Source of the DNA: Micromonospora sp. NBC_00421
GTDB lineage: Bacteria > Actinomycetota > Actinomycetes > Mycobacteriales > Micromonosporaceae
DNA length: 64,000 bases
Reading direction: 5' to 3'
Assembly: GCF_036017915.1 (NCBI RefSeq)
Contig: NZ_CP107929.1
Location: forward strand, 5,212,001-5,276,000
Translations under genes and position numbers: made by a program
Part shown: positions 3,401-36,421 of the stretch, piece after piece
Layout: each line of letters opens with the position of its first letter
How positions within the stretch are numbered: the first letter of the stretch is position 1
The notes under the pieces: model-generated
Database searches by the model: none
The model's input: only the letters and a program-made list of their open reading frames with translations
Told to the model about the DNA's origin: nothing

Positions 3401-3946
3401 CGGGCCGTGGTGAAGCTGATCGCGGGCAACCGGAACACCCCCCGTCAGCGGGAGTTGGCCACCGGCATCGCGCAGAACGCGCTGCTGGTCTTCGACGTCG
3501 GTGACGGCGACCTCGACGACGCCGTCCGGCGCTGCTACCGCGACTCGACCGAGTCTTACTTCCACGCCACCTACCCGCCGGACGCGTTGGACGACCTGAT
3601 CGCGGCCGAGGGCGCGCAGGCCGACCTGTCGGTCTACTTCAACGACGCCCGGATGGGCCGGGACTTCGACGTGCCGGCCGGCCCGCCCGACCGCGCGACG
3701 CTGACGGAGTTGGCCGCGCACACCACCGTCCGGCAGATCGCCGCCGTCGCCCGCCACGACATGACCTTCTTCCTGGCCATGCCCCACCTGGCCGGCGGCT
3801 GCGCGCTGCACCTGCTGGCCGACACCCGGCGGGTACCCGCGGCCACCTGCCTGCGGGCGCTGCGGGGCATCGAGACGCTGCTGTCCGAGGCGGTGCTGCG
3901 ACCGGTGCAGGTCCGGGACGTCGCCGCACTGCTGGACCTCGGTTGA
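494..3946 (+). CDS. Nonribosomal peptide synthetase, MbtH-A-PCP-C
   Basis: Starts at the GTG overlapping the upstream stop (1150 aa). Residues 1-60 are a complete MbtH-like domain ([10 protein letters not shown] at 11-20, then WTDLRPASL), normally a separate ~70-aa partner of adenylation domains. The A domain follows ([11 protein letters not shown] near 240, [21 protein letters not shown]), then a carrier domain with LGGDSM (phosphopantetheine Ser630), then a condensation domain to the C-terminus. In the A4 motif the Asp that usually binds the substrate alpha-amino group is replaced (LYFVGS, Val near 286), so the substrate may not be an ordinary alpha-amino acid. The condensation motif is SHVALDG (845-851): the first His of HHxxxDG is Ser, the second is kept. 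There is no thioesterase domain, so the product is probably passed on or released by another protein. Confidence 0.93.
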
Positions 3947-6837: not shown

Positions 6838-8625
6838 ATGTTGACGGCGATCACCGGGCTGATGCGGCTGTCGTGGCGGCAGGACCGCCGCAAGATGGCA
6901 GTGGCGTTGGCCCTGATGGCGGGCAACGCGGTCGCGCTGCCGCTGGCCGCGGTGGCGCTCCGGCACCTCACCAACGCGGCGGCTGCCGGTCACGCCGGGA
7001 CGGCCGCCTGGTCCGGCCTGGCCGTCGCGGTGGCCGCGATCGCGGCGCTCACCTGCGCGCACTTCGCCCACATCGGCTACTTCGAGGTGTCCGAGCTCAA
7101 CGTGCTCAGCACCGACGAGCAGCTCATCGGGATCAGCAACGACACCCCGTACCTCGACCACCACGAGCGGCCCGACAGCGCCGACCGGATGGCCCTGGCC
7201 CAGGACGAGTTGCAGCGCATCGGCGAGGGGTTGCAGGCGCTGCTGACCGGCGGCTCGCTGGCCGTCAGCCTGCTGCTGACCACAGTGCTGCTCACCCTGG
7301 TCCACCCGGCGCTGGTGCTGCTGCCGCTGCTTGCCGCCCTGCCGGTGCTGGCGGCGCGGCGGGCCCAGGCCGCCGCCGACCGGGCGCGCGAGGAGAGCAT
7401 CGTCGACACCCGGCAGGCCCGGCACCTGTTCGAACTGACCACCGACGCGGCCTCGGCCAAGGAGCTGCGGCTGCTGGGCCTGGTCGGGCACCTGCAACAG
7501 CGTTACGCCGGGCACTGGCGGCGGGCCACCGCCCGGATCTGGCGGGGCGAGCTGGCCGCCGGGTGGTGGCGCGCGGCCGGGCAGGGCGTGTTCGGCCTCG
7601 GGTACGTCGCCGCGCTGGTCCTGGTCGTCCACGACGCGATCAGGGGCCACGCGGACGTCGGCGACGTGGTGCTGGCCATCCTGCTCGCCTCGCAGCTCAA
7701 CCAGCAGGTGGCTGCCGCCGTGACGATCACCCAGCAGCTCGTACGCAGCGGCCGGTCCCTGCGCCGGCTGGACGAGGTGCGTGAGCTGGTGCCGCAGCCG
7801 GTGCCGCCGCCCGACGCGCCGGCCACCCCGCTGCGCCCGCCCGCACGCCTGCTGGAGGGCATCCGCCTGCGGAACGTCACCTTCGGCTATCCCGGCGCGG
7901 CCGGGCCGGTGCTCCGCGACGTCGACCTGCTGCTGCCCGCCGGCTGCACGGTGGCGATCGTGGGCGAGAACGGCGCCGGCAAGACCACGCTGGTCAAGCT
8001 GCTCAACCGGTTCTACGAGCCCGACCGGGGCGCGATCGAGGTCGACGGCGTCGACCTGCGGCACCTCGACCTCGCCGCCTGGCGGGAGCGGACCACCGCC
8101 GCGTTCCAGGACTACGCCCGCCCGGAGCTGACCGCCCGGCTGGCGGTGGGCATCGGCGACCTGCCCCGGGCCACCGACGACGACGCGGTACGCACCGGCC
8201 TGGCCCGCGCGCACAGCGACGTCGTCGACCGGCTGCCGTACGGGCTGGACACCCGGCTGGGGCGCAGCCACGCCGACGGCGGGGTGGACGCCTCCGGCGG
8301 GCAGTGGCAGCAGCTCGCGCTCGGCCGGGCGATGATGCGCGACGCCCCGCTGCTGATGGTGCTCGACGAACCGGCGTCGGCGCTGGACGCCGAGGCCGAG
8401 CACCGGCTGTTCGCCCGGTATGCCGACGGCGCGGCCCGGGTCGCCGCCGACAGCGGCGGGGTCACGGTCTTCGTGTCGCACCGGCTCTCCACAGTCCGCA
8501 GCGCCGACCTGATCATCGTGATCGGCGACGGCGGGGTACGCGAGATGGGCACCCACGACGAACTGATCCGCCTCGACGGGATCTATGCCACCCTCTACGC
8601 CACCCAGGCCACCGCCTACCGCTGA
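6838..8625 (+). CDS. ABC exporter, fused membrane and ATPase domains (second of pair)
   Basis: 595 aa with an N-terminal membrane domain (hydrophobic segments across about residues 15-300) and a C-terminal nucleotide-binding domain: Walker A GENGAGKTT, Walker B MVLDEPASALD, H-loop FVSHRLST. The signature is ASGGQWQQLALGRA, with Ala replacing the usual Leu and QQ for QR, so this half may carry the weaker ATP site of an asymmetric heterodimer. It closes the biosynthetic operon; the stop lies only 2 bp from the stop of the next, convergent gene, leaving no room for a separate terminator. Confidence 0.92.
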   Translation: MLTAITGLMRLSWRQDRRKMAVALALMAGNAVALPLAAVALRHLTNAAAAGHAGTAAWSGLAVAVAAIAALTCAHFAHIGYFEVSELNVLSTDEQLIGISNDTPYLDHHERPDSADRMALAQDELQRIGEGLQALLTGGSLAVSLLLTTVLLTLVHPALVLLPLLAALPVLAARRAQAAADRAREESIVDTRQARHLFELTTDAASAKELRLLGLVGHLQQRYAGHWRRATARIWRGELAAGWWRAAGQGVFGLGYVAALVLVVHDAIRGHADVGDVVLAILLASQLNQQVAAAVTITQQLVRSGRSLRRLDEVRELVPQPVPPPDAPATPLRPPARLLEGIRLRNVTFGYPGAAGPVLRDVDLLLPAGCTVAIVGENGAGKTTLVKLLNRFYEPDRGAIEVDGVDLRHLDLAAWRERTTAAFQDYARPELTARLAVGIGDLPRATDDDAVRTGLARAHSDVVDRLPYGLDTRLGRSHADGGVDASGGQWQQLALGRAMMRDAPLLMVLDEPASALDAEAEHRLFARYADGAARVAADSGGVTVFVSHRLSTVRSADLIIVIGDGGVREMGTHDELIRLDGIYATLYATQATAYR

Positions 8626-8627
8626 GT

Positions 8628-8900
8628 TCATGGCCGCACCTTCGATGCGGGCCGCCGCTGCTGCCCGACCGGCACGGGGGCGGTCCGTCGGTGGACGACC
8701 AACCCCGCCGGCTGTACGAAGATCGACCGTCGGGCCACGGCATCCCCCTTGTCGTTCAGTTGGTAGACGTCGAGCCAGCACCAGCCGTCGTAGGTGATCC
8801 AGTCCAGCACCCGGATGACCCGGCACCGGATGGGCTTGACGAACTGCACGCTGGCCGCTCGCGTCACCTGGATCAGGTCACCCGCGCGGAGCGCCGTCAT
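8628..8900 (-). CDS. Small conserved protein of unknown function
   Basis: 90 aa from the ATG at 8900, which follows GGGGGACC; a longer reading to 8936 lacks a good ribosome site. The protein is basic with repeated short beta strands (AGDLIQVTR, FVQPAGLVV), suggesting a small beta-barrel, but I cannot name a family. It lies 22 nt after the next small gene on the same strand, and the pair diverges from the three helix-turn-helix genes at 9306-9975, so they may form one accessory regulatory module. Confidence 0.65.
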   Translation of the reverse strand: MTALRAGDLIQVTRAASVQFVKPIRCRVIRVLDWITYDGWCWLDVYQLNDKGDAVARRSIFVQPAGLVVHRRTAPVPVGQQRRPASKVRP

Positions 8901-8922
8901 CGCAGGTCCCCCACTTGCTCGG

Positions 8923-9204
8923 TCACGACTCACCACCCGGCCACGGCCTTTGGTTGGTCATGAGTCGGCGGGCCGACCGGTTGGGCTTGGGCAGCCAACC
9001 GAGGAACCGGCGGTGGAGAGCGCCAGCCGGAGCCCAGCCCATGTCCTGCGTGGCTGACACCAGATGCGCGCCCAGGTAGAGGGCGAGGGACACCGGAGCG
9101 TTGTCGTACTCCGCGATCAACTCCCGGCGGCGGGTGGGACATGGCCAGGGCGATTCACACCCGGCACACGTCCAGACAGGCAGAACAGGTCCGTGGCTCG
9201 TCAT
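8923..9204 (-). CDS. Small Cys-containing protein of unknown function
   Basis: 93 aa. The N-terminus has WTCAGCESPWPCPTRR, a CxxC...C cluster that could hold a metal, followed by a helical segment. Small proteins of this appearance are frequent in Micromonosporaceae and are sometimes labelled flavin reductase without structural support, so I give no function. It is the first gene of a two-gene unit and starts 101 bp from the divergent HTH gene at 9306. Confidence 0.6.
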   Translation of the reverse strand: MTSHGPVLPVWTCAGCESPWPCPTRRRELIAEYDNAPVSLALYLGAHLVSATQDMGWAPAGALHRRFLGWLPKPNRSARRLMTNQRPWPGGES

Positions 9205-25614: not shown

Positions 25615-25655
25615 CGCACACCGCCGGCACCGCTGGTGGCGTGGCCTCGGAAACG

Positions 25656-25686
25656 GCGAAGCCCAGGCCGGTGACCTGGGCTTCGC
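25656..25686. terminator. Terminator between convergent genes
   Basis: 12-bp perfect arms (25656-25667, 25675-25686) with a 7-nt loop lie between the RidA-like gene and the minus-strand sigma-factor operon. Confidence 0.8.
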
Positions 25687-25693
25687 TACCGAT

Positions 25694-26191
25694 TCAGGAG
25701 GTGCAGAACGGTGCCGGCCGGGTGAGGCCAAGCTCCTTGCACTCCCATCCGGTGCCCTGTTCGTAGTACCGCCAACCTGTATCGATCGTGTAGTGGAACA
25801 GGTAGCGGACGTTGCCGCCGGCCGGGCGCTTCACGTCGGCTGCCGCCCAGGTCTCCGCGCACTGCACGGTGGTGGACGCGAACGACCAGTCCTGCGGCAG
25901 TTCGACCAGGTCCCCGAGGGTCTGGATCGATGGACAGTCGGGTGTTTCGGGACCGGTGGTGCCGGGGGCGGCCGCGGGTGGCGCCGACAGGTCGGACCGG
26001 TGGCTCACGGCGAAGGCGACGGTGCCGCCGATGGCGAACACCGCCGCTGCGGCTGCGGCACCGGTGGCGAGAGTCGCCCGCCGTTGCGACTGCCGCGACT
26101 TACGCAGGGACCGCTCGTACAGGTCGGCGCTGCCGCCGTACTCGCTCAGATCGGACATGGCCTGACGCAGCGGCCCGAGGTCGTCGGTCAT
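25694..26191 (-). CDS. Membrane partner of the ECF sigma factor with extracytoplasmic Cys domain
   Basis: 165 aa from the ATG overlapping the sigma-factor stop (ATGA). Residues 1-38 are a charged cytoplasmic segment, about 39-62 one membrane helix (ATLATGAAAAAAVFAIGG), then a Pro-rich linker and an outside domain (~85-165) with four cysteines in CPSIQTL, VQCAETW, WECKELG and PAPFC. The same domain occurs twice in the lipoprotein encoded just downstream of the sigma promoter side (26840-27541). Position and topology suggest an anti-sigma or sensor protein, although no zinc anti-sigma motif is present; this role is inference. Confidence 0.75.
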   Translation of the reverse strand: MTDDLGPLRQAMSDLSEYGGSADLYERSLRKSRQSQRRATLATGAAAAAAVFAIGGTVAFAVSHRSDLSAPPAAAPGTTGPETPDCPSIQTLGDLVELPQDWSFASTTVQCAETWAAADVKRPAGGNVRYLFHYTIDTGWRYYEQGTGWECKELGLTRPAPFCTS

Positions 26192-26709
26192 CAGGCCTCC
26201 TCCATCACGGCCGAGAGCAGCTCCGGCGCTATCTGCCGCATACGGGCCAGCGCCTTGCTGGTCTGACTCTTGATCGTGCCGACCGAACACTGCAACAGAA
26301 TCGCGGCCTCGGCCTCGCTGCGGTCCTCGAAGAAGCGGATCACCAGCACCGCGCGCTGCCGCTGGGTGAGTTGGGCGAGAGCCTGGTGCAGGGCGAGCTT
26401 GAGATCGGTACGGCGGGCGTGGTCACTGCCGGGCTGCGCCACGTCGGCCAACTCCCCGGGCAGGGACTCGGCCACCCTGCGACGCCGCCACCAGCTCACA
26501 TGCTGGTGGTACATCGCAGTACGGGTGTACGCCTCGAAGTGCCCCGGATCGTCCAGCCGCCGCCGGCCCCGATGGGTGCGGGCCAGCGCGTCCTGCACCA
26601 GGTCCTCGGCGAGGTGGCGGTCGCCGGTCAGCAGGAACGCCGTCCGGAGCAACGCCGGCGAGCGGGTCCGGACGAACTCCCGGAACTGATCGTCGATCGA
26701 CTCCGCCAT
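26191..26709 (-). CDS. ECF RNA polymerase sigma factor, SigE family
   Basis: 172 aa from ATG 26709. Region 2 contains LLRTAFLLTGDRHLAEDLVQDAL and region 4 LTQRQRAVLVIRFFEDRSEA followed by the helix-turn-helix VGTIKSQTSKALARMR. These are the marks of the SigE70 group common in Actinobacteria. It is translationally coupled to a one-helix membrane protein, the usual arrangement for a sigma factor held by a membrane sensor. The signal is not known; the shared cysteine domain points to something sensed outside the membrane. Confidence 0.9.
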   Translation of the reverse strand: MAESIDDQFREFVRTRSPALLRTAFLLTGDRHLAEDLVQDALARTHRGRRRLDDPGHFEAYTRTAMYHQHVSWWRRRRVAESLPGELADVAQPGSDHARRTDLKLALHQALAQLTQRQRAVLVIRFFEDRSEAEAAILLQCSVGTIKSQTSKALARMRQIAPELLSAVMEEA

Positions 26710-26778
26710 ACCCCGCTCGTGCCCCCCACCTAACGCACAGGTCGTCAGGGCGCGGCGACGTCGGTGCGCGGCCGGCTG

Positions 26779-26814
26779 ACTGTGGTGCACACCGTAACTG
26801 GTGTGCACCACAGT
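26779..26814 (-). terminator. Terminator after the repeat-domain lipoprotein gene
   Basis: Perfect 15-bp arms (26779-26793, 26800-26814) with a 6-nt loop lie 25 nt past the stop of the lipoprotein gene and upstream of the sigma-factor gene. It should separate the two units; an operator role is also possible because of its position before the sigma gene. Confidence 0.75.
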
Positions 26815-26839
26815 GCGCGACCGCGGTCGATCCGACCGG

Positions 26840-27541
26840 TCAGGAGATACAGAACGGCGCCGGCTCGGTCAGGCCGAGGTCCTTGCAGTCGTATCCGCTG
26901 CCCTCGCCGTAGTACTTCCAGCCCGTACCGGCCGTGTAGTGGAACAGGTAGACGCCGTCACCGGCCTTCGGGCCCTGCGGGTCGGCTCCCGCCCAGTCCT
27001 TCACACACTCGACACCGCCGAAGGTCATGCCCTTCGGCAGCTCGACCAGGGATTCCAGCGCCTTCGCCGAAGGACACTTGGGACTCGTGGTCGCCGGCTT
27101 CGTCGCCGCCGGCTTCGTCGCAGGCTTCGTCGCCGTGGTCGCCGGGTCCGAGACGCAGAACGGCGCCGGCTCGGTCAGGCCGAGCTCCTTGCACTCTTGT
27201 CCGCTGCCCTCGCCGTAGTACTTCCAGCCCGTCCCCGCCGTGTAGTGGAACAGGTAGACGCCGTCACCGACGCCCGGACCCTGCGGGTCGGCCCCCGCCC
27301 AGTCCTTCACACACTCGACACCGCCGAAGGTCACGCCCTTCGGCAGCTCGACCAGCTTCTGCAGGTTGGTCCCCGAGGGACAGTCGGCACTGTTGACATC
27401 CCCGGGTGCCTGGGTGGTCGCCGTGGGCGTGGCACCGGGGGCGCCTGCGGTGGAGCCGGAACTGGGTGCCTCCGTGGCGTTGCAGGCGGTAAGTGCGAAC
27501 AGAACGGCGGCAGCGGGCAGCAGCAGACGACGTGCAGACAT
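26840..27541 (-). CDS. Lipoprotein with two copies of a four-Cys domain
   Basis: 233 aa. A signal peptide ends in the lipobox ALTAC (Cys20). After a Thr/Ala/Pro linker come two near-identical ~80-residue domains (about 54-131 and 153-233) joined by a Lys/Pro/Thr-rich stretch. Each holds CPS, LVELPKG, VECVKDWAGADPQGP, GVYLFHYTAGTGWKYYGEGS, ECKELGLTEPAPFC or a close variant; the four Cys probably form disulfides. The domain matches the outside part of the sigma-factor partner at 25694-26191. I know no function for it. It is transcribed from the far side of the locus in the same direction. Confidence 0.8.
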   Translation of the reverse strand: MSARRLLLPAAAVLFALTACNATEAPSSGSTAGAPGATPTATTQAPGDVNSADCPSGTNLQKLVELPKGVTFGGVECVKDWAGADPQGPGVGDGVYLFHYTAGTGWKYYGEGSGQECKELGLTEPAPFCVSDPATTATKPATKPAATKPATTSPKCPSAKALESLVELPKGMTFGGVECVKDWAGADPQGPKAGDGVYLFHYTAGTGWKYYGEGSGYDCKDLGLTEPAPFCIS

Positions 27542-27863
27542 TTCCGGACCCCTATGGATCGTGGCGATCGTTGCTTACACCCGGGTACATGCGATCCACC
27601 GCCCGCAGGTTGCCGCCGGCCGGAACTTTTCTCGAATCTCTCGGCGACCGTGCGCCACGAGCCCACCGCACGGAGGCTTCCACCCCGGCGTCAGACGACG
27701 GCGGGCAGGACAGGCGGGCGCTCGTCGGTCAGCAGATCGGGCAGCGCGGAACTCACAGCAACAGCACCTTGGACCGCCCGGCCCGCGACCGTCGCGGTTA
27801 TGTACAGATTTACTCACTTTCATCCGTTTGATGTAGATAATCTACGGGCGAAGTGTTTAGGGC
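27542..27863. other. Intergenic region, AT-richer at its right end
   Basis: Upstream of the lipoprotein gene, so it should hold its promoter. I see no convincing gene. Near 27800-27845 the sequence becomes AT-rich for this genome and contains the palindrome GTAGATAATCTAC (27833-27845), possibly the old control region of the decayed surface-protein gene that follows. Confidence 0.4.
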
Positions 27864-28318
27864 GTGTTGGCCGGTCAGGCGGTTACCGACGTCCCGCCCC
27901 CGGTCGGTCCTTCGACCATCAACGGGGACCTGGGGGTTGGCCGGGCCGGCCTGGGGGTGGCCACTCCCAACGGTCTGACCGGGGCCTGCGGTGGCGGCAC
28001 GATCTCGGCGACCGCCGGTGGCGGGAGCATCAGTCTGACCGGAGCGACATCGCCGGCTGGCGGGAATTGCACCCTCTCGGTGAACGTCACCGGCACCACA
28101 AGCGGAACGAAGGTCAACACCAGCGGCCCGGTGGACTCGACCGAGAGCGGCCCGGGTGCCCCGCCTCGGCAAGACTCATGGTCGGTAAAGGCATCCTGCC
28201 CGTCACCGGAAGCGCCAGCGCGAGCTACGCCGCCGTCGCCCTGACCATGATCGGCCTCGGTGCGGTGCCGGTCGCAATGCACTACCGGTCGGTCCGGCGT
28301 CGGCGCCACGCAGCCTAG
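27864..28318 (+). pseudogene. Decayed sortase-anchored surface protein (LPVTG)
   Basis: Three blocks of one former gene are visible. At 27864 the frame reads [10 protein letters not shown] then STINGDLGV, resembling the start of DUF3494 ice-binding-like adhesin domains. It jumps to [17 protein letters not shown] and [14 protein letters not shown], resembling DUF11/DUF7933-like surface repeats. A frame change near 28165 leads to [18 protein letters not shown], a hydrophobic helix and RRRR, a textbook LPXTG cell-wall sorting signal ending at TAG 28316-28318. A TAG at 27856 precedes the first block and no signal peptide remains. Internal deletions and at least one frameshift make it a pseudogene. 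Confidence 0.7.
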
Positions 28319-28405
28319 CCTCGTCCACCTCAAGGGCAAGGGCTTCTTCCGGAAGACCGACGCCTGCCTCAAATGAACTATCCCGCTCACATTCTTGTGG
28401 GGGAC

Positions 28406-28513
28406 AGGGGGCGATTCACAACTGCATCGATGAAAATGAGGCCCTGACCAGCGCTGGCGCTGGTCAGGGCCTCCCTCTGAGCCGCCTGACGGAATCGAAC
28501 CGTCGACCTACGC
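28406..28513. repeat. Attachment-like direct repeat A (tRNA-Thr 3' end plus terminator)
   Basis: A 108-bp copy of the sequence at 34315-34422. It has a GGGGCGATTCA block, CATCGATGAAAATGAG, a stem-loop (28441-28470) and the last 34 nt of tRNA-Thr within a 37-bp exact match (28477-28513). The 5' half of the tRNA is absent. It marks the distal end of the island array and, by the usual logic of tRNA integration, retains the original chromosomal 3' end. Confidence 0.85.
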
Positions 28514-28651
28514 CTACCGAACGTCACGAGCCAGAGCTTGCTACTGATCGTCGGCGTCCATCACCGACCTGCACAGACACGATCGCAAGCTCATCAACGC
28601 CGGTCACCGATAGCTGTCCATAAGCAGCGGTTTTCGGGGGGTGAGCGGGGG
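28514..28651. repeat. Conserved island arm next to repeat A
   Basis: The bases inside repeat A share TACCGAAC at the start and a TTTCGGGGGGTGAGCGGGGG-type block (from 28632, 119 nt from the repeat) with the corresponding arm inside repeat B (32307-32444, block from 32424, 118 nt). No gene is present from 28514 to 28692. Spacing conservation suggests recombinase-arm or accessory-protein binding sites. Confidence 0.5.
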
Positions 28652-28692
28652 CACCGCTGACCCCTTGCCGGACAGGCACGACCCCGGCCGGT

Positions 28693-29454
28693 TCAGGCGA
28701 TCTTGCGGCGGTAGGCAGCCATCGCAAACGCGTAGGCGATGACCAGGATTCCGGCGCACCAGGCGAGTGCGATCCAGATGTCGTTGCCAACGGGCTGTTG
28801 CTCGAACAGTGCTCGGATGGCGTTGACGATCGCGGTGACCGGCTGGTTCTCGGCAAAGGCTCGCACTGGGCCGGGCATCGTCTCGGTGGGGACGAACGCC
28901 GAACTGATGAACGGCAGAAAGATGAGTGGATACGAGAAGGCGGACGCCCCGTCCGGGGTGGATGCGGTCAAGCCGGGGATCACTGCGAGCCAGGTCAGGG
29001 CGAGGGTGAACAGCGTGAGCATGCCCGCCACGGCGAGCCAGGCCAGCAGCCCGGCGGAGGAGCGGAAGCCGATCACCAGCCCGACTCCGATGATGACCAC
29101 CACGGAGATGCCGTTGGACACCAGAGAGGTCAGCACATGGCCCCACAGCACCGATGACCGGACGATCGGCATCGAGTGGAACCGTTCGAAGATGCCGCTC
29201 TTCATGTCCGTGAACAGCCGGAATCCCGTGTATGAGATGCCGCTGGCGATCGCGATCAGCAGGATGCCCGGCATCAGATAGTTGACGTAGTTGTCGGTGT
29301 CGGCCTGGATCGCGCCGCCGAAGACGTATCGGAACAACAGCAGGAACGCGATGGGCATGATCGTCACCGTGATGATGGTGTCGAGGCTACGGGTCACGTG
29401 CTTGATCGAGCGGTCGAGCATCACGCCGGTGTCACTGAGGACGTGAGTGGTCAT
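28693..29454 (-). CDS. ABC-2 type transporter permease (DrrB-like)
   Basis: 253 aa from ATG 29454, two nt after the ATPase stop. It has six hydrophobic helices with the ABC-2 pattern: TVTIMPIAFLLLFRYVFGGA, MPGILLIAIASG, then a late FLPFISSAFVPTETMPG loop typical of daunorubicin-type permeases. With the adjoining ATPase it should form a drug or lipid exporter. It is the last gene of the PadR-DUF1048-EXLDI-ABC operon in island 1. Confidence 0.9.
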   Translation of the reverse strand: MTTHVLSDTGVMLDRSIKHVTRSLDTIITVTIMPIAFLLLFRYVFGGAIQADTDNYVNYLMPGILLIAIASGISYTGFRLFTDMKSGIFERFHSMPIVRSSVLWGHVLTSLVSNGISVVVIIGVGLVIGFRSSAGLLAWLAVAGMLTLFTLALTWLAVIPGLTASTPDGASAFSYPLIFLPFISSAFVPTETMPGPVRAFAENQPVTAIVNAIRALFEQQPVGNDIWIALAWCAGILVIAYAFAMAAYRRKIA

Positions 29455-29456
29455 GA

Positions 29457-30218
29457 TCAGGCCTGCTTTCCGACGACGGCGAGGAACACTTCCTCGAGGG
29501 TGGGCTGCCGTTCCACGTACTCGACCTTGGCTGGCGGCAGCAGTTTCCGCAGGTCGGCCAGGGTGCCGGAGACGATGATCGTGCCCCCGTGCAGGATCGC
29601 GATCCGGTCGGCGAGCTTCTCCGCCTCTTCCAGGTATTGCGTGGTCAACAGCACCGTCGTCCCATCGCCGGCGAGCTTCTGGATCTCGTTCCATACCTCG
29701 ATGCGGCCCTCCGGATCGAGGCCGGTGGTCGGCTCGTCGAGGAAGATGACCGGAGGGTCACCGATGAGGCTCATCGCGATATCGAGCCGGCGGCGCATGC
29801 CTCCCGAGTACGTCCCGACGCGGCGCCCGCCGGCGTCGGCCAGCCCGAACCGGTCGAGCAGTTCATCAGCGATCTGGCGGGGGTTGCCGACCCGGCGCAG
29901 CCGGCCAACCATGACCAGGTTCTCGCGGCCGGTGAGGATCTCGTCGACGGCGGCGAACTGCCCGGTCAGGCTGATCGATTCGCGCACCCGCACCGGCTCG
30001 GACCCGACATCGAACCCCTGGACGCTTGCCGTGCCGCCGTCCGGCTTGAGCAGGGTGGACAGGATGCGCACGACAGTGGTCTTGCCTGCGCCGTTCGAGC
30101 CGAGCAGCGCGAAGATGCTGCCGCGCGCCACTTCGAAATCGACGCCCTTGAGGACGGGTAGTTCCTTGTAGGACTTGCGCAATCCGTTGACCCGAATCGC
30201 CGGGCTGGCTGTTGCCAT
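29457..30218 (-). CDS. ABC transporter ATPase (DrrA-like)
   Basis: 253 aa from ATG 30218 preceded by AGGAGG; a GTG/ATG further up is rejected. Walker A is GSNGAGKTT, signature TYSGGMRRRLDIAMSLI, Walker B PVIFLDEPTTGLDP, and the C-terminus has the DrrA-type PTLEEVFLAV. It couples ATP hydrolysis to the permease encoded 2 nt downstream. The neighbouring PadR regulator suggests drug-inducible expression. Confidence 0.92.
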   Translation of the reverse strand: MATASPAIRVNGLRKSYKELPVLKGVDFEVARGSIFALLGSNGAGKTTVVRILSTLLKPDGGTASVQGFDVGSEPVRVRESISLTGQFAAVDEILTGRENLVMVGRLRRVGNPRQIADELLDRFGLADAGGRRVGTYSGGMRRRLDIAMSLIGDPPVIFLDEPTTGLDPEGRIEVWNEIQKLAGDGTTVLLTTQYLEEAEKLADRIAILHGGTIIVSGTLADLRKLLPPAKVEYVERQPTLEEVFLAVVGKQA

Positions 30219-30341
30219 GTGCCGCCTCCTGTGCTTGGGCATGGGTCATCGCCGGCGGTCGCCGTTGGCTCCGTCCGTGATGTGGGGACGTGTGTGATCG
30301 ACGGGCGAGCCGACGCTCGTCCGTGGTTGGTCAGGCGCGGA

Positions 30342-30872
30342 TCAGATGTCGAGGTCCTCGATCGTCGGTTCGTGAACGGCGTCGAGAACCAGCTTGTAGA
30401 GCTCGGACGGGACGATCTCGCGCAGCGCGTCGAGGTCGTCGGCGATGCGCAGGCTGGAGTCGGCGGGAATGCGTGTCCAGGATTGGTTGGCGCTCCAGTC
30501 GCCGACCCAGGCGCGCCAGCCAGTGCGGTACTTCTCGGCGTTCGGCCCGATGTTCACATGCGCCTCGGACCGCTCGAGGTGGGCGACGTACTTTCCGCTG
30601 CGGGTGCGGTAGACCTGGTAGGTCTCGTCGCGCTCGTTGCCGGTCCGCTCCATCTCGGCCAGCAGCACGCCGGAGAACCGCTGTTTGCGGCCGAGCCCCG
30701 GCCCGACGCGCACGACGACATCGTCGTACCCCTGCTGCCGGCCCTCCTCGACCTCGACGTAGCGGCGCAGCGCGGCGGCGATGGCCGCCGACAGGGTGCC
30801 GCCGGCAAGCTCCTGGGCGCGCTGAAAGAGCGGCAGGTCGTCGTCGGACACGTAGATGGTCTTGTTGGGCAC
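30342..30872 (-). CDS. EXLDI-family protein
   Basis: 176 aa from GTG. The protein begins with a short ribbon-helix-helix-like segment (KTIYVSDDDLPLFQRAQEL) followed by GTLSAAIAAALRRYVEVEEG and ends with PTIEDLDI, close to the ExLDI C-terminus that gives the family its name. EXLDI proteins are typically encoded between PadR/DUF1048 genes and an ABC transporter, as here. Their function is not established; the N-terminus suggests DNA or protein binding. About 120 nt separate it from the ATPase gene. Confidence 0.82.
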   Translation of the reverse strand: MPNKTIYVSDDDLPLFQRAQELAGGTLSAAIAAALRRYVEVEEGRQQGYDDVVVRVGPGLGRKQRFSGVLLAEMERTGNERDETYQVYRTRSGKYVAHLERSEAHVNIGPNAEKYRTGWRAWVGDWSANQSWTRIPADSSLRIADDLDALREIVPSELYKLVLDAVHEPTIEDLDI

Positions 30873-30915
30873 GACCTGACTACACGTACGCCTATACGTA
30901 CACGCGACGCCGGCG

Positions 30916-31221
30916 CTATCGGGTCACGGACTCCTGATAGACGTCGGCATAAGTGCGCGAGTCCTTGATCAGGTCATCGCAGAAGGCGGCGACGTCGGCG
31001 CCCGTGACTTCCAGAACGCCCTTGCCGGCCACGACGCCCTCCTCGAAGAAGTCGACGATCCCAGGGAGCAGACCCTCGTCGAGCAGATCGGTCGGCCCGA
31101 CCTTGAACAGGTAGCGCTGCATCTCCTCGTAGACGATCCGATAGTCGGGCGGGAGAGCCTTGACCCGAGCGACGTGCGCCCGCCACTGCTTCTTGCCCTC
31201 GATGATGTCCTGGATGCTCAC
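30916..31221 (-). CDS. DUF1048 protein (second of pair)
   Basis: 101 aa from GTG, one nt after the stop of the first DUF1048 gene. Family features: EGKKQWRAHVARVKALPPDY, VYEEMQRYLFKVGPTD, then GVLEVTGADVAAFCDDL near the end. DUF1048 proteins are small helical proteins that accompany PadR regulators of ABC exporters; they probably bind the regulator or sense ligand, but this is not proven. It shares about a third of residues by eye with its neighbour. Confidence 0.82.
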   Translation of the reverse strand: MSIQDIIEGKKQWRAHVARVKALPPDYRIVYEEMQRYLFKVGPTDLLDEGLLPGIVDFFEEGVVAGKGVLEVTGADVAAFCDDLIKDSRTYADVYQESVTR

Positions 31222-31222
31222 G

Positions 31223-31579
31223 TCAGTCTCCTAGCCGGGCCAGTTTGCGTGCGACGTTCCGGTTCAGCTGCCTCCGCCACCGGTCGCGGTAACTGCGGGC
31301 GCCCGCGCCGCCGGCCAGCGCCGACGTGAAGCCGGCAATGTCGTCGCCGAGCACCTCGTCGATGCGCTGCCCATCGGCTGCGGCTTCCTCGAGCAACCCG
31401 AGAGCGGCGTCGGCGATAGGGGTCAGGTTGCGGCCCGTGAAGCTCCCGTACGGGGAGAGGTGAGCCACTATCTGCCCCCACGCGGCCCGATAGTCGGCCG
31501 GCAACGCCTGCGCCCGGCCTTCGAACGCTTTCCACTCTCGGGTCAGATCGCTGCCCGTGATGGTCTCCCAGAAGCTCAT
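31223..31579 (-). CDS. DUF1048 protein (first of pair)
   Basis: 118 aa whose ATG overlaps the PadR stop (ATGA). The protein reads REWKAFEGRAQALPADYRAA, then NLTPIADAALGLLEEAAADG and VLGDDIAGFTSAL, matching DUF1048, with an extra basic C-terminal tail (WRRQLNRNVARKLARL). Two tandem DUF1048 genes behind a PadR gene are a recurrent actinobacterial arrangement. Its direct role is unknown. Confidence 0.82.
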   Translation of the reverse strand: MSFWETITGSDLTREWKAFEGRAQALPADYRAAWGQIVAHLSPYGSFTGRNLTPIADAALGLLEEAAADGQRIDEVLGDDIAGFTSALAGGAGARSYRDRWRRQLNRNVARKLARLGD

Positions 31580-31902
31580 GCCCCGGCCTCCTTGAGTTTG
31601 TCGATCCGCGAGGAGACGTACTGCCACTTCGCCCAGAACGTCGCGAGCTCCCTGCGCCCGGTGTCGTTGAGCGTGTAGAACTTGCGCGGCGGACCCACTT
31701 CGGACGGCCGCTTCGCAACCTGGACAAACTTGTTGCGCTCCAGACGCAGCAGGATGGTGTACACCGTGCCGTCGATGACGTCGGTGAAACCGAGCTCGTT
31801 CAGGCGACGCGTGATGGCGTAGCCGTAGGTCTCCTCACGGCCGATGATTTCGAGCACGCACCCCTCGAGCGTGCCCTTCAACATCTCGGTCAGATCCTCC
31901 AC
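31576..31902 (-). CDS. PadR-family transcriptional regulator
   Basis: 108 aa from GTG 31902, chosen because GGAGG lies 5 nt upstream; a TTG at 31914 is the alternative. The winged helix has LKGTLEGCVLEIIGREETYG, ITRRLNELGF and the wing GTVYTILLRLERNKFV followed by GPPRKFYTLNDTGRREL, all classic PadR. It is the first gene of the operon ending in the ABC exporter and should repress it until a drug or signal binds. Confidence 0.9.
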   Translation of the reverse strand: MEDLTEMLKGTLEGCVLEIIGREETYGYAITRRLNELGFTDVIDGTVYTILLRLERNKFVQVAKRPSEVGPPRKFYTLNDTGRRELATFWAKWQYVSSRIDKLKEAGA

Positions 31903-31920
31903 ATCAACCTCCAATCCGCT

Positions 31921-31990
31921 ATCTGGTACGACGGGGTACTGGTATACGGTATCACCGAGTACCGCTAGTCGGTAGTACCGAGTACTGGAA
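31921..31990 (-). promoter_or_regulatory. Candidate PadR operator/promoter with repeated GTAC motifs
   Basis: Just upstream of padR the sequence is AT-richer and carries many GTAC/GGTA words. ACCGAGTAC occurs twice in direct orientation (31954-31962 and 31977-31985), two helical turns apart, with GGTACTGGTATAC nearby. This is a plausible autoregulatory site. The stretch 31991-32200 up to repeat B holds no recognisable gene. Confidence 0.45.
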
Positions 31991-32200
31991 ACTTCTGCCG
32001 GTCAGGAGTGGAAGCGGTAGCCCAAGCGAGGCTCGACGAGAAGGCGGGTCCAACCGCGCAGCCCGGTGGAAACCGGGCGGGCCCATCCCCCCGCCAGCAG
32101 AACCCGCCAGCCGGCGCGGCGCAGCGGGTCCTCGCAAGCTCCCGTCGCACCAGGGTCCTGTCAGACCATCGGCGACGCCAAGCCGCAGGGCGGAGTCTTC

Positions 32201-32306
32201 GGGGGCGACTCAAATCTTCATCGATACAAGAGATGCCCTGACCTGCGTCTCCGCTGGTCAGGGCATCATCCGAGCCGCCTGACGGAATCGAACCGTCGAC
32301 CTACGC
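32201..32306. repeat. Attachment-like direct repeat B (tRNA-Thr 3' end plus terminator)
   Basis: The 106-bp middle copy. GGGGGCGACTCA, a stem (32234-32243 with 32256-32265) and the tRNA-Thr 3' end (exact from 32272 to 32306) match copies A and C, with more drift in the terminator loop. It separates the two islands. Confidence 0.85.
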
Positions 32307-32444
32307 GTACCGAACCCAGTGGTCCTGCATCGTCGTCGACTGTCAGGACTTGGCGCTGAGCCGTACAAACGACCCGGCAGAATACTCATCGTTGGTCACC
32401 ACTGGTCTGCCGATGGCAGGGACTTTCGAGGGGTGAACGGGGGC
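32307..32444. repeat. Conserved island arm next to repeat B
   Basis: Counterpart of 28514-28651: GTACCGAAC directly after the tRNA fragment, GGTCACC near 32396, and TTTCGAGGGGTGAACGGGGG from 32424. No gene is seen between 32307 and 32553. Confidence 0.5.
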
Positions 32445-32553
32445 GGCCACCAGGCGCGGCGCGTTGCTGTCGCCGGGAAGGTGTCAGGCATCCTCGTCGC
32501 GGGTCGCCCCCGCTGTGTCCTGCCGAGGGGCGTACCCGGCTCAGTGATGTGTG

Positions 32554-33237
32554 TCAGGCTGCGGGTTGCTCGTTGGGGAAGAAGACCTTCTCGACCTGAT
32601 CGTGGTTGGTGTGCAGCTCCCAGTAGAGCGGCGCGATCTCCTCCGGCGCGGTGGCGCCCGGCTGGCGGGCGAGCCACGTGCCGATTGCGACGTGGCCGAC
32701 CTGCACTCCCCGGGGAGCGGCAGCGGCGTGCAGGCCGTGGGCCCAGTTGCGGAGCCATGCCGCAGCCGGGCCGACGTTGCCGAATATCTCGTGACCCATC
32801 TCCGGACGCACGGAGGTGGCGCCGGTGGTGAACAGGATCGTGCCCGAGCCTCGGGCGAGCATCTCCGGCAGCACCTCGCTGACGGCAGCAACGGCTCCGT
32901 GTACGAGGAAATCGAGATGGACCTGCACGTTTTCGTGGGTCAGCTCGGTGGAGGGAGCCATCGGCAGCGCCGGGTTGGACGGCGAATACTCGAAGACGTC
33001 GATCTGCCCGAATCGCTGCCTGACCGCAGCGAGGCCGGCGACGATCGACGGCCGGTCGGTCACGTCGGCTGCGAAGGCCGCCGCTTCGATGCCCTGACCG
33101 ATCAGTTCGGCCACGACCGGCTCCAGCTTGGCCGGGGTCCGCGACAGCAGCGCGACCTGGTGGCCTTCCTTGCCGAAGGTCTGAGCGATGGCGAGTCCCA
33201 TTCCGGGACCGGCACCCATGATGGCGATGGTGGGCAT
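32554..33237 (-). CDS. Atypical short-chain dehydrogenase/reductase
   Basis: 227 aa from ATG 33237 after AAGGAG. The Rossmann start is IAIMGAGPGMGLAIAQTFG, the NN-type strand and ILFTTGATSV follow. At the place of the catalytic YxxxK it reads IFGNVGP, so both Tyr and Lys appear to be replaced. It may therefore bind NAD(P) without classical dehydrogenase chemistry. It is transcribed away from a TetR gene with tandem operators 300 nt upstream, an arrangement that suggests TetR control. Confidence 0.8.
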   Translation of the reverse strand: MPTIAIMGAGPGMGLAIAQTFGKEGHQVALLSRTPAKLEPVVAELIGQGIEAAAFAADVTDRPSIVAGLAAVRQRFGQIDVFEYSPSNPALPMAPSTELTHENVQVHLDFLVHGAVAAVSEVLPEMLARGSGTILFTTGATSVRPEMGHEIFGNVGPAAAWLRNWAHGLHAAAAPRGVQVGHVAIGTWLARQPGATAPEEIAPLYWELHTNHDQVEKVFFPNEQPAA

Positions 33238-33607
33238 GACTTTCTCCTTAGATCACGTGGTGAACAGTGGGATGGAACAACGGACCGACTGCCGCCGGGG
33301 CTGGCGCGGCGGGCAGGGTCGGCGTCAGTTGCTGATCTGCAGTTCCTGCCGTACGTATCGCAGATTCTCGGCATGAGCGAGCATGAATTGCGCGAGCTCG
33401 GCCCGGGAAGTGTGTGAGCCGACCCGGTCCCCGGATCCGGTCCCGGTGCGCACTTCGACCCTCCCGATCCAGTTTCATCAGGTCTCCTGAGCCTGGTCTG
33501 AGCCGGATCACCGAGGGGCTCATGGCACAAAATGAGGACACCCTCAGCTTGTGCTGCCACCATAGCACGCAAGTTGAGGAGCACCTCAAGTTGATAGGCT
33601 GTGCGGC
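33238..33607. promoter_or_regulatory. Divergent SDR/TetR region with two palindromic operators
   Basis: Two related palindromes lie before tetR: TGAGG-ACAC-CCTCA (33533-33546) and TTGAGG-AGCA-CCTCAA (33574-33589). Both have the core TGAGG-N4-CCTCA and their centres are 42 bp apart, four helical turns. The second ends 18 nt before the tetR start and should overlap its promoter. The rest of the 370 bp shows no convincing gene. Confidence 0.65.
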
Positions 33608-34342
33608 ATGTCCCCCGAACCCGCACCTGCCGCGACCACGGCCCCCGCCCGGCCGCTGCGTCGCGACGCGCAGCGCAACCGCGACTCGCTACTCGCGGCC
33701 GCTCAGGCCGTGTTCGCCGAACAGGGGATGGAGGCGTCGCTGGAGCAGGTCGCCAAGCGGGCTGGAGTGGCCATCGGCACGCTCTACAACCACTTCCCCG
33801 CCCGGCTGGACCTGGTGCAGGAGGCCTTCGCCGGCAAGCTCGCGATCTGGGTCACCGCCGCCGAGCAGGCCCTGACCATGGACGACGCGTGGGAAGGACT
33901 GTGCCTGTTCCTGGAAACCATGTGCGAACTCCAGGCCCGCGACCGGGGCTTCAACGACTTCGCCTCGATCCGGCTACCGGAAAACGCCTGCCTGGCCGGC
34001 CAGCAGACCCGGATCCACGACCTCGGCATACGCATCGTCAAACGGGCCCAACAACAAGGCCACCTCCGGCCCGACCTGGCCCCCGAGGACCTCGCCTTCG
34101 TCATCTGGTCCCACAGCCGGATCATCGAGGCGACCGACGGCATCGCCCCGCACGCCTGGCGTCGTCACCTGCACCTGATGCTCGACGGATTCCGCGCCGA
34201 GCGCGCCCACCCACTGCCCGAACCGCCCCTGACCCCCGAACAGCTCTACCGAGCCATGCTGCGCCTCGGCGGCACCGACACCCTCCGTCCAGCCACGTCC
34301 ACGGAGGAGTTCTCGGGGGGCGATTCAAAACCGCATCGATGA
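33608..34342 (+). CDS. TetR-family regulator
   Basis: 244 aa. The helix-turn-helix is ASLEQVAKRAGVAIGTLYNH, followed by F-PARLDLVQEAF, standard for TetR. The ligand domain is helical with FNDFASIRLPENA. The last residues (EFSGGDSKPHR) and the stop lie inside direct repeat C, so the gene's natural 3' end may have been replaced when the repeat was formed. It likely represses itself and the divergent SDR gene through the paired palindromes upstream. Confidence 0.88.
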   Translation: MSPEPAPAATTAPARPLRRDAQRNRDSLLAAAQAVFAEQGMEASLEQVAKRAGVAIGTLYNHFPARLDLVQEAFAGKLAIWVTAAEQALTMDDAWEGLCLFLETMCELQARDRGFNDFASIRLPENACLAGQQTRIHDLGIRIVKRAQQQGHLRPDLAPEDLAFVIWSHSRIIEATDGIAPHAWRRHLHLMLDGFRAERAHPLPEPPLTPEQLYRAMLRLGGTDTLRPATSTEEFSGGDSKPHR

Positions 34343-34422
34343 AAATGAGGCCCTGACCAGCGAACCCGCTGGTCAGGGCCTCACACTGAGCCGCCTGACG
34401 GAATCGAACCGTCGACCTACGC
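34315..34422. repeat. Attachment-like direct repeat C (proximal, joined to intact tRNA)
   Basis: The 108-bp copy contiguous with the complete tRNA-Thr gene. It includes the tetR stop codon, CATCGATGAAAATGAG, the tRNA terminator and the tRNA 3' half. Copies A and B repeat all of this but not the tRNA 5' half (34423-34462). Confidence 0.85.
34349..34380 (-). terminator. Rho-independent terminator of tRNA-Thr
   Basis: 14-bp perfect arms (34349-34362, 34367-34380) with a 4-nt loop are followed on the minus strand by CTCATTTTC. It lies 8 nt past the tRNA 3' end and is duplicated in repeats A and B. Confidence 0.85.
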
Positions 34423-34462
34423 ATTACGAGTGCGTCGCTCTAGCCGACTGAGCTAAGGCGGC
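34389..34462 (-). tRNA. tRNA-Thr (anticodon CGU)
   Basis: A full cloverleaf can be folded: acceptor GCCGCCT paired with AGGCGGC, D-arm with AGCTCAGTCGGCTAGAGC, anticodon stem ACGCA/TGCGT around loop CTCGTAA (anticodon CGT, reading ACG codons), and T-arm GACGGTTCGATTCCGTC. Discriminator is U and CCA is not encoded. The 3' half is the repeated integration site of the islands to its left. Confidence 0.95.
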
Positions 34463-34573: not shown

Positions 34574-36421
34574 GTGAGCGACGACCACGCCACCCCCGAC
34601 CACCACGCCACCCCCGACCACCACGCCACCCCCGACCACCACGCCACCCCCGACCACCACGCCACCCCCGCCGACCCCGCCACCCCTGCCGATCCTGGCG
34701 ACACCGCCACGCCGGACCCGGATGCCGAGCACGCCCCCGGTGAGCGGGCGGTCCGTCGGCCGCGCGGCACCGATCCGGTGGAGCTGGGCTTCACGCCCCG
34801 CAGACCGGTCCCCTGGCTCGCGCCGTTCCTGTTGATCAGCACCGGCATCCGTACCCTGCTGGCGATGCTGTTCGGGGCGTACCTGGACAAGCGGGAGTTG
34901 CAAAACGCGCTCGACGCGCGGATCGGCGAGCAGGTCGGGCCGGACGGCGGGCTCTGGCTGGACTACGTGGCCGACCTGGGCGACGGTTTCGACGCCACGT
35001 ACTCGGTGGCCTACCTGCTGGCCCAGCCGGAGCTGACTGTCGACGGGCACCGGCTGCCCCGGGCGCAGACCCTGGTGATGGGGGGCGACCAGGTCTACCC
35101 GTCGGCGGCCTACGAGGCGTACGAGGACCGGTGCAAGGGGCCTTACCAGGCGGCGCTGCCGGTGGCCCCGCCGGAGCGGCCGACGCTGTTCGCGGTGCCC
35201 GGCAACCACGACTGGTACGACGGGCTGACCGCGTTCCTGCGGCTCTTCGTCCGCTCCCGGGACCGGAACTTCGGCGGCTGGGGCACCGGCCAGTCCCGGT
35301 CGTACTTCGCGGTGCAACTGCCGGCGGGGTGGTGGCTGCTCGGCCTGGACGACCAGTCGGGGTCCTACCTGGACGATCCGCAACTCGCCTACTTCGACGA
35401 GGTGGCCCGCCGGCTCGGCCCGGACTCCCGGGTGATCCTGGCGGTGCCGGCACCGACCTGGGTGAAGTCCGTCGACCACCCCACCGCGTACGACTCGATC
35501 GACTACTTCGTCCGGACGATCATCGCGCCCACCGGCGCGCACGTCCGGCTGCTGGTCTCCGGCGACCTGCACCACTACGCCCGGTACGCCGGCCCGGGAC
35601 GACAGTTGATCACCTGCGGCGGGGGCGGCGCATACCTGTACCCGACGCACACCCTGCCCGAGCGGATCGAGGTGCCACCGAAGGACACCCTGTCCCGCCG
35701 GGCCAGTCGCACCCGCGCGTACGACCTGGTGGCCCGTTTCCCGGACGCGGCCCGCTCCCGCCGGTACGGCTGGGGGATCTTCCACCGGCTGCCCCGACGC
35801 AACCCGGGCTTCGGCACCCTGCTCGGCACCCTGCACACGCTGCTGATGCTCGCCATGGCGGGTGTCGCGGCCAACCGCACCGGCACCGAGCAGCGGTTGT
35901 TCAGCGTCCCGTTGGTGATCATGTTGGCGGTGACGCTGCTCGGCGCGGCCTTCTTCGCCAAGCCGCCCAGTGCCGGCGGAAAACGGCACGTCCGGCACTG
36001 GCTGCTCGGCGTCGGTCACGGGCTCGCGCACGTGGTGCTCGCCGTCGCCGGCACCTGGGCCTGGCTGCACCTGCCGTTCTACGACTGGCCGTGGCCGCTG
36101 CCGGCGGTCGCCGCCGCCGTGCTCTACGGCCCGGTGATCGGGCTGGTGGCCACCCAACTGGTGGCCGGTTACCTGCTGGTGGCGGGGGCGTTCGGGGTCA
36201 ACGTCAACGAACTCTTCGCCGGCCAGGGCATCGAGGACTCGAAGTCGTTCCTGCGGATGCGCTTCGACCCGGACGGCACGCTCACCGTCTATCCGATCGC
36301 CGTCGACCGCGTCTGCCACGACTGGCAGCTCAACCCCGACCAGTCCCCCACCGCCTCCTGGCTGACCCCCCACACCCCCCTAACCCCCCACCTAGCCGAA
36401 CCCCCCATAACCCTCACCTAA
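34574..36421 (+). CDS. Membrane metallophosphoesterase
   Basis: 615 aa from GTG. The calcineurin-like core shows LGDGFDATY, MGGDQVYPS, VPGNHDWYDG and SGDLHHYARY, giving the metal ligands of the binuclear centre. One hydrophobic helix lies near residues 78-100 and about five in the C-terminal third (from ~415 to 545), so it is a membrane enzyme with the catalytic domain between helices. The substrate is unknown. The first 32 residues are His/Asp/Thr/Pro repeats from a DNA tandem repeat. Confidence 0.88.
   Translation: MSDDHATPDHHATPDHHATPDHHATPDHHATPADPATPADPGDTATPDPDAEHAPGERAVRRPRGTDPVELGFTPRRPVPWLAPFLLISTGIRTLLAMLFGAYLDKRELQNALDARIGEQVGPDGGLWLDYVADLGDGFDATYSVAYLLAQPELTVDGHRLPRAQTLVMGGDQVYPSAAYEAYEDRCKGPYQAALPVAPPERPTLFAVPGNHDWYDGLTAFLRLFVRSRDRNFGGWGTGQSRSYFAVQLPAGWWLLGLDDQSGSYLDDPQLAYFDEVARRLGPDSRVILAVPAPTWVKSVDHPTAYDSIDYFVRTIIAPTGAHVRLLVSGDLHHYARYAGPGRQLITCGGGGAYLYPTHTLPERIEVPPKDTLSRRASRTRAYDLVARFPDAARSRRYGWGIFHRLPRRNPGFGTLLGTLHTLLMLAMAGVAANRTGTEQRLFSVPLVIMLAVTLLGAAFFAKPPSAGGKRHVRHWLLGVGHGLAHVVLAVAGTWAWLHLPFYDWPWPLPAVAAAVLYGPVIGLVATQLVAGYLLVAGAFGVNVNELFAGQGIEDSKSFLRMRFDPDGTLTVYPIAVDRVCHDWQLNPDQSPTASWLTPHTPLTPHLAEPPITLT
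34580..34669 (+). repeat. Five 18-bp tandem repeats in coding sequence
   Basis: Units of GACCACCACGCCACCCCC encode DHHATP five times (first unit DDHATP) at the N-terminus of the metallophosphoesterase. The near-perfect identity suggests recent expansion; unit number can vary without breaking the frame. The His-rich stretch could bind metal. Confidence 0.9.

Follow-up and report, generated by a model that had tools for sequence, protein, structure and literature searches.

Integrase-less elements stacked at the 3′ end of a tRNA-Thr(CGT) gene in Micromonospora: a probable array of cis-mobilizable elements

How did three copies of the 3′ end of one tRNA gene come to lie in tandem in the genome of Micromonospora sp. 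NBC_00421? We examined a 64,000-nucleotide stretch of this genome (contig NZ_CP107929.1, positions 5,212,001 to 5,276,000, here called the window), in which a preliminary description had read the two segments between the copies as cis-mobilizable elements (CIMEs) accreted one after another. We consider it likely that CIME-type elements have accreted in tandem at the 3′ end of tRNA-Thr(CGT), most probably inserted stepwise by the tyrosine integrase of a co-resident integrative and conjugative element (ICE). The earlier reading is supported by variable occupancy of the site, by the presence of one segment alone in another genome of the genus (G007), by matched element ends, and by integrases in relatives.

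The sole tRNA gene that ARAGORN predicts in the window encodes tRNA-Thr(CGT) (34388 to 34462, minus strand), and exact copies of its terminal 35 nt lie farther along the same strand, 2116 and 5909 bp downstream. These core copies lie at 34388 to 34422 (copy 1), 32272 to 32306 (copy 2), and 28479 to 28513 (copy 3), with core-to-core spacings of 2116 bp for element 1 and 3793 bp for element 2. Each repeat consists of a core, a hairpin, and an arm, about 107 bp in all, and the coordinates given previously were right within a few bases. It was also correctly noted that the right-hand copy alone joins the 5′ half of the tRNA; copies 2 and 3 lack that half. After each core come a hairpin and an arm of one type, here called class A, in which GAGGCCCTGACCAGC-loop-GCTGGTCAGGGCCTC precedes TTTTGAATCGCCCCCCGA, each with variants. 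The copy 1 hairpin and the proximal arm of element 1 (34311 to 34387, minus strand) align with 20 other class-A proximal arms. Core comparison and arm alignment delimit copy 2, which includes the proximal arm of element 2 (32196 to 32306, minus strand), and copy 3 (28406 to 28513, minus strand). A terminator had been described in each repeat: a hairpin is indeed present each time, and our terminator scan called that of copy 3 and part of that of copy 1 and left that of copy 2 uncalled. In a search of the whole genome, a 152-nt tRNA-plus-arm query recovered the displaced copies at E values of 3e-39 (93%) and 1e-25 (84%). In the genome, a single contig of 7.23 Mb, a 32-nt core pattern with ≤3 mismatches had three sites; the reversed-pattern control had none.

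The two elements carry small and unrelated cargos. Element 1 encodes a TetR-family regulator (33608 to 34342, plus strand; Pfam PF00440), the open reading frame (ORF) of which runs at its end into the arm, and a short-chain dehydrogenase (32554 to 33237, minus strand; PF00106). Its distal arm (32307 to 32420, minus strand) aligns with other class-A distal arms and is related to ends in three genomes that match element 1 at this end only (G014, G101, and G114). Element 2, all on the minus strand, encodes a PadR-family regulator (31576 to 31914; PF03551), two DUF1048 proteins (31223 to 31627 and 30916 to 31221; both PF06304), an EXLDI protein (30342 to 30872; NCBIfam TIGR04342, no Pfam family), and an ABC-2 exporter pair. 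The latter comprises an ATPase (29457 to 30242; PF00005, DrrA-like below the NCBIfam curated cut-off) and a membrane protein (28693 to 29694 from its first start, the true start probably lying further in; PF01061 at residues 90 to 296). The distal arm of element 2 was placed at 28514 to 28630 by class-A arm alignment.

We compared these eight ORFs with Pfam and NCBIfam and ran our own integrase hidden Markov model (HMM), built from 8 self-chosen sequences, on all open frames of at least 40 codons in both elements. As the preliminary description had stated for recombinase, relaxase, and replication genes, these scans recognized no recombinase or integrase, relaxase, replication, or transfer family in either element. 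Mobilization and conjugation families were likewise absent from the eight main ORFs in Pfam and NCBIfam, and no search for oriT was made. Elements 1 and 2 thus lack the integrase plus conjugation machinery of an ICE or actinomycete ICE (AICE), and also the integrase, usually with a relaxase, of an integrative and mobilizable element (IME). A CIME, in the available text of PMC5704250, has lost its integration and transfer genes and kept attachment (att) sites attL and attR. Both elements have attL and attR with the common 35-nt core and no recognized recombination or transfer genes, and their arms align with those of integrase-bearing relatives. We regard them as CIME-like because both att ends are kept and no integrase or transfer protein is recognizable.

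Identical gene content around tRNA-Thr, named earlier as an outcome that would argue against accretion, did not occur. Where the conserved backbone was reached in relatives, its distance from the tRNA ranges from 0.76 kb (G005) to 17.2 kb (G019). A lipoprotein/sigma factor region with its near edge at 27663 in the window lies 217 bp after the tRNA in Micromonospora matsumotoense (L128) and ∼570 bp after it in strain NBS 11-29 (L076). Elements 1 and 2 and copy 3 are absent from both strains (∼9.8 kb compared), and the M. matsumotoense genome has one core only. Single occupancy was also found: in G007, element 2 lies core to core directly at the tRNA (92.8% over 3838 alignment columns) without element 1; a class-B hairpin flanks its far end, and its neighbors on both sides differ from those in the window. 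In G161, element 2 lies at tRNA-Thr behind a 1.36-kb class-B segment, its ends eroded (93.4% over 3564 columns), and in G186 its genes (88 to 90%) lie between the tRNA and a HAD-phosphatase gene, the class-A ends missing. Among the matches listed, these three and the window genome are the 4 of 160 genus genomes that have most of element 2 at ≥88% identity; parts of its operon occur at lower identity in all 160.

Identity to the window is higher for element 2 than for the tRNA-5′ flank in G007 (93.8 versus 83.0%) and G161 (94.3 versus 87.4%) and lower in the nearer relative G186 (89.5 versus 92.7%); the G007-G161 row was left out of this comparison because whole loci had been used for that pair. 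Since the window copy resembles the copies of two more distant lineages more closely than it does that of G186, the pattern points to horizontal transfer of element 2. Elements 1 and 2 are each a unit with two att ends, and units of this kind occur in differing combinations at one tRNA.

The site is a hot spot within the genus. The core (≤2 mismatches) is present in 157 of the 160 genomes, and 64 have at least two copies, not all on one contig; core matches were itemized for part of the 160, and the repeat search itemized 21 further genomes with at least two cores. We assembled 62 core-to-core segments from 52 loci, three outside the genus; the set leaves out L078 (2752 bp, class A), cores far apart or on separate contigs, and named loci from genomes that were already represented. 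Three families of ends can be told apart: class A, with far arms that end in, for example, TTCGGTA or TCGAGGA; class B, with GATCTCGTAAT; and class C, with CGACTCGTAAT. Near and far ends agree in family in 47 segments (A/a 14, B/b 23, C/c 10), a number reached by 0 of 20000 shuffles, and this agreement is descriptive only because the rules were drawn by eye from the same data. The integrase HMM matches 36 of the 62 segments, many by short pieces directly at the near end. It matches 3 of the 14 A/a segments, all as remnants (L113, L119, and G093); the other 11 include both window segments. Gene calls outside the window, made with a simple script of our own, show cargo sets like those of elements 1 and 2 in other class-A segments: an ABC exporter and MarR regulator in L105, a TetR regulator and a flavin mononucleotide oxidoreductase in L078, and DUF6879 and DUF6082 proteins in L119. 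MFS, transposase, and regulator genes occur in a 16.4-kb segment of G012.

An integrase with the same att site, which the preliminary description had suggested seeking, does exist in relatives. A full-length tyrosine integrase of 405 to 406 aa (family A) lies beside a class-A arm at tRNA-Thr(CGT) at six loci, two outside the genus, in Asanoa siamensis (L116/L196) and Actinoplanes sp. TFC3 (L118/L195), and four in the 160 genus genomes (G059, G076, G101, and G168), ∼150 to 170 bp from the core. Of the 160 genomes, 41 have some match to this integrase at E 1e-60. Related integrases with similar arms occur at tRNA-Pro(GGG) (full length in G011, partial in G006 and G018), and similar arms follow tRNA-Arg(CCT) in G012 and, together with a broken integrase, tRNA-Lys(CTT) in G007. 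The integrase of G059 stands at the head of a 70.7-kb ICE-like stretch with matches to TrbL, TraG-type, coupling-protein, Replic_Relax, and M23 families, followed in tandem by a 3313-bp class-A segment with no integrase match, the arrangement that would be expected for cis-mobilization. In A. siamensis, the element has genes for PrgI, TraG-type, and Replic_Relax proteins; its far core lies on another contig and adjoins a flank resembling that after the intact tRNA in Actinoplanes iriomotensis; because of the contig break, this stretch is not established as a single element. An origin of the class-A family from FtsK-type AICEs was considered and rejected, given the type IV secretion system (T4SS) proteins in both elements examined in detail (G059 and A. 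siamensis). These comparisons indicate that the class-A end family goes with the integrase found full length beside tRNA-Thr(CGT) in relatives.

No free form was found among the 83 plasmid and 740 phage records that match the tRNA-plus-arm query, none of which covers >80% of it in one place. The exact core occurs in twelve viral-contig stretches, 7 of which have an integrase HMM match. One of the twelve, the prophage-like L318 (IMGVR_UViG_2563366734), has a class-A arm after its core (8899 to 8933) and integrase HMM matches on both sides, and it appears to hold a prophage and, in tandem with it at this tRNA, a family-A element; the other viral contigs have other hairpin classes.

Several other processes might leave repeats of this kind. 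The locus could be a variable island exchanged by homologous recombination between its conserved tRNA and HAD flanks, with the repeats as inert relics of old insertions. The backbone is in fact conserved on both sides in many relatives, and one or both ends are missing around the element 2 genes of G186 and G161. Element 2 of G007, however, is bounded exactly by cores and has different neighbors, which flank exchange would have carried along, and end families match within segments. We therefore consider this explanation improbable.

Elements 1 and 2 are adjacent and both have class-A ends, as they would if they were a single larger ICE or IME, secondarily split, and if the middle repeat were no junction. 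The middle repeat, however, has a complete core and both arms, and the occurrence of element 2 without element 1 in G007, G161, and G186 largely contradicts such an origin, which we judge very unlikely. Three similar copies in a row might also suggest segmental duplication of the tRNA 3′ region without site-specific insertion, the other outcome that had been named as unfavorable to accretion. The cargos between the copies are unrelated, the arms flanking the cores on both sides recur across genomes, relatives without the segments exist, and element 2 with different neighbors in G007 contradicts duplication, to which we give almost no credence.

Stepwise, integrase-mediated accretion accordingly remains our preferred explanation, and several observations weigh against it. 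Family-A integrase was not found in the window genome at E 1e-20 or E 1e-60, so the search for a matching integrase succeeded in relatives and failed at home. The genome has 15 other PF00589 matches, the nearest of which, among 12 listed, lies ∼300 kb away. No integrase remnant was found in element 1 or 2, and because neither keeps a detectable one, we only infer their descent from an ICE or IME. Element 1 occurs as a unit in none of the 160 genomes besides the window genome (G000): 24 have matches at E 1e-20, including G000, and the longest outside G000 is 72% over 587 nt. End families differ or are unassigned in 15 of the 62 segments (B/c 4, B/a 3, C/a 2, C/b 2, and four single cases), and the end classes come from inspection by eye of these very data, with two proximal classes reassigned before the count. 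Class-A distal arms (26 compared) are loosely conserved, with a mean ungapped pairwise identity of 0.55 to 0.37 up to 150 nt from the core and 0.29 at 150 to 200 nt. The terminator scan found 4 sites in the region against a shuffle mean of 3.0, i.e., no excess; for this reason, and because the scan misses copy 2, the label "terminator" is one of shape. Excision, transfer, and present mobility are predictions of this explanation.

Under stepwise accretion, each element would bring a replacement tRNA 3′ end and its own hairpin arm, and the resident 3′ end would be displaced to the far side of the element. The arms of elements 1 and 2 are of the family found in tyrosine-integrase elements, T4SS ICEs among them, at tRNA-Thr(CGT) in relatives. 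Integrase from a co-resident ICE most likely acted as the helper, in cis from a tandem position and possibly also in trans; elements 1 and 2 would have been inserted one after another, and the helper could also excise them. Crossover would occur inside the 35-nt core, perhaps in its T-arm (GACGG/CCGTC around a 7-nt loop), a crossover place familiar from tRNA att sites in general. The window array is probably stranded without a family-A helper.

The left repeat extends this picture. The preliminary description had counted two bounded segments, and these stand, at 3793 and 2116 bp; there are nevertheless three element ends. The arm of copy 3 is class A, as in copies 1 and 2, and because this is an element-type arm, we interpret copy 3, the hairpin of which is terminator-like, as opening a third, decayed element or remnant and not as the native 3′ flank. 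Beside it, on the strand expected for int, is a 13-residue match to family-A integrase (SLVHLKGKGFFRK; 28317 to 28355, plus strand). Over the whole window its E value is 0.15, and chance matches elsewhere there reach 0.01; tested in its own place, its score of 53 lay above those of all 1486 random stretches (maximum, 49) and all 1500 shuffles (maximum, 50). This is a probable scrap of a family-A integrase.

The lipoprotein/ECF sigma factor region follows at 25693 to 27663 (minus strand), assigned by comparison with relatives. Because this region lies near the tRNA in M. matsumotoense and NBS 11-29, the third element is limited to copy 3 down to ∼27663. For the same reason, we rejected a class-B hairpin at 25648 to 25686 (minus strand) as the far end of a 2.8-kb third element. 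This hairpin, which has no core, lies 8.7 kb from the tRNA, resembles those directly after the tRNA in many relatives, and is perhaps the mark of an older event. The lipoprotein-like genes at 25694 to 27541 have internal repeats: the 242-nt copies at 26844 and 27150 are 88% alike, and a stretch at 25694 is related to both. The ECF sigma factor gene (26191 to 26811) lies amid these genes. On the other side of the locus, a 615-aa protein (34574 to 36421) has no Pfam family, appears phosphoesterase-like by eye, and among 80 named loci is closest to its M. matsumotoense homologue (93%). An 18-bp tandem repeat at the start of its gene (34579 to 34686) codes for DHATPDH-like repeats.

We made further observations on other genomes. 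Of the class-B and class-C segments, which represent other end families at the same tRNA (e.g., L215, L216, L217, L233, L234, and L242), many have an integrase piece directly at the near end, often a short one, as if the genes had decayed from the 5′ side with the att end staying. Two long class-A segments, L244 (G166, 8.4 kb) and L213 (G101, 14.2 kb), each start with a long SNF2-helicase-like gene; by eye, the caspase-like/helicase gene of G166 looks like a defense or conflict system. ARAGORN called a 94-nt tRNA-Ala(ggc) in G012 at 8054 to 8147 of L049, inside the 16.4-kb element, and again at 8485 to 8578 of L064, calls that may be spurious. A second core lies 445 kb from the tRNA copy in G168 and ∼5 Mb away on the other strand in G045 (Actinoplanes sp. 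TFC3), which suggests rearrangement or a second site.

Related genomes show this site unoccupied, singly occupied, occupied in tandem, and linked to an ICE, and so provide natural replicates of CIME accretion in actinomycetes. Because occupancy varies among relatives, whether att-flanked, integrase-less blocks move in cis only or also in trans becomes directly testable. The locus also points to a way in which gene sets that pair a regulator with an exporter or with an oxidoreductase may spread among actinomycetes. A bolder, speculative idea, which we think doubtful at present, is a genus-wide cassette system: the 3′ end of tRNA-Thr(CGT) would be an integron-like platform that Micromonospora species share, and its end families, three or more, would be largely separate. 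Blocks of 1 to 2 transcription units that lack mobility genes would be inserted and excised there singly, in trans, by the integrases of passing ICEs.

We found no publication on this tRNA-Thr(CGT) site for islands of Micromonospora or Salinispora in a literature search whose coverage excluded most subscription journals. The closest parallels, according to the portions of the sources available, are in Streptococcus, in which tandem CIMEs of 1.2 to 13 kb occur in S. salivarius and 215 CIMEs lie at tRNA-Lys(CTT) in 303 genomes of S. agalactiae (PMC7563491). As in the window, these are small att-flanked cargo blocks that lack genes for recombination or transfer and lie one behind another at a gene's 3′ end; in many cases an ICE or IME adjoins them. 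Here, in contrast, the host is Micromonospora, the site is tRNA-Thr(CGT), the related ICEs are T4SS elements with Replic_Relax, and the window array has no adjoining ICE or IME. T4SS-based ICEs have been searched for in actinobacteria before, as the available text of PMC3218068 indicates.

Two actinobacterial CIMEs have been described, the 42-kb XSAM1 beside pSAM2 in Streptomyces ambofaciens (PMC4891641) and, in the accessible part of PMC8369830, the 20-kb TR1 of Streptomyces scabiei. As far as the available text goes, both resemble the window segments in having no transfer functions of their own, and they adjoin an ICE and share its att sites; they are far larger than the window segments of 2.1 and 3.8 kb, which hold 1 to 2 transcription units. 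Clusters of attC sites lacking integron-integrases (CALINs), which the available text of PMC11389934 describes as integron cassette arrays without an integrase, likewise consist of small cargo units in arrays that need an integrase from elsewhere. Unlike in those arrays, as that text presents them, the repeat in the window consists of the 3′ end of a tRNA gene and two arms, its matching integrase is of ICE type, and insertion would renew the tRNA. CIME accretion at tRNA 3′ ends is already known, and the window locus adds a further case.

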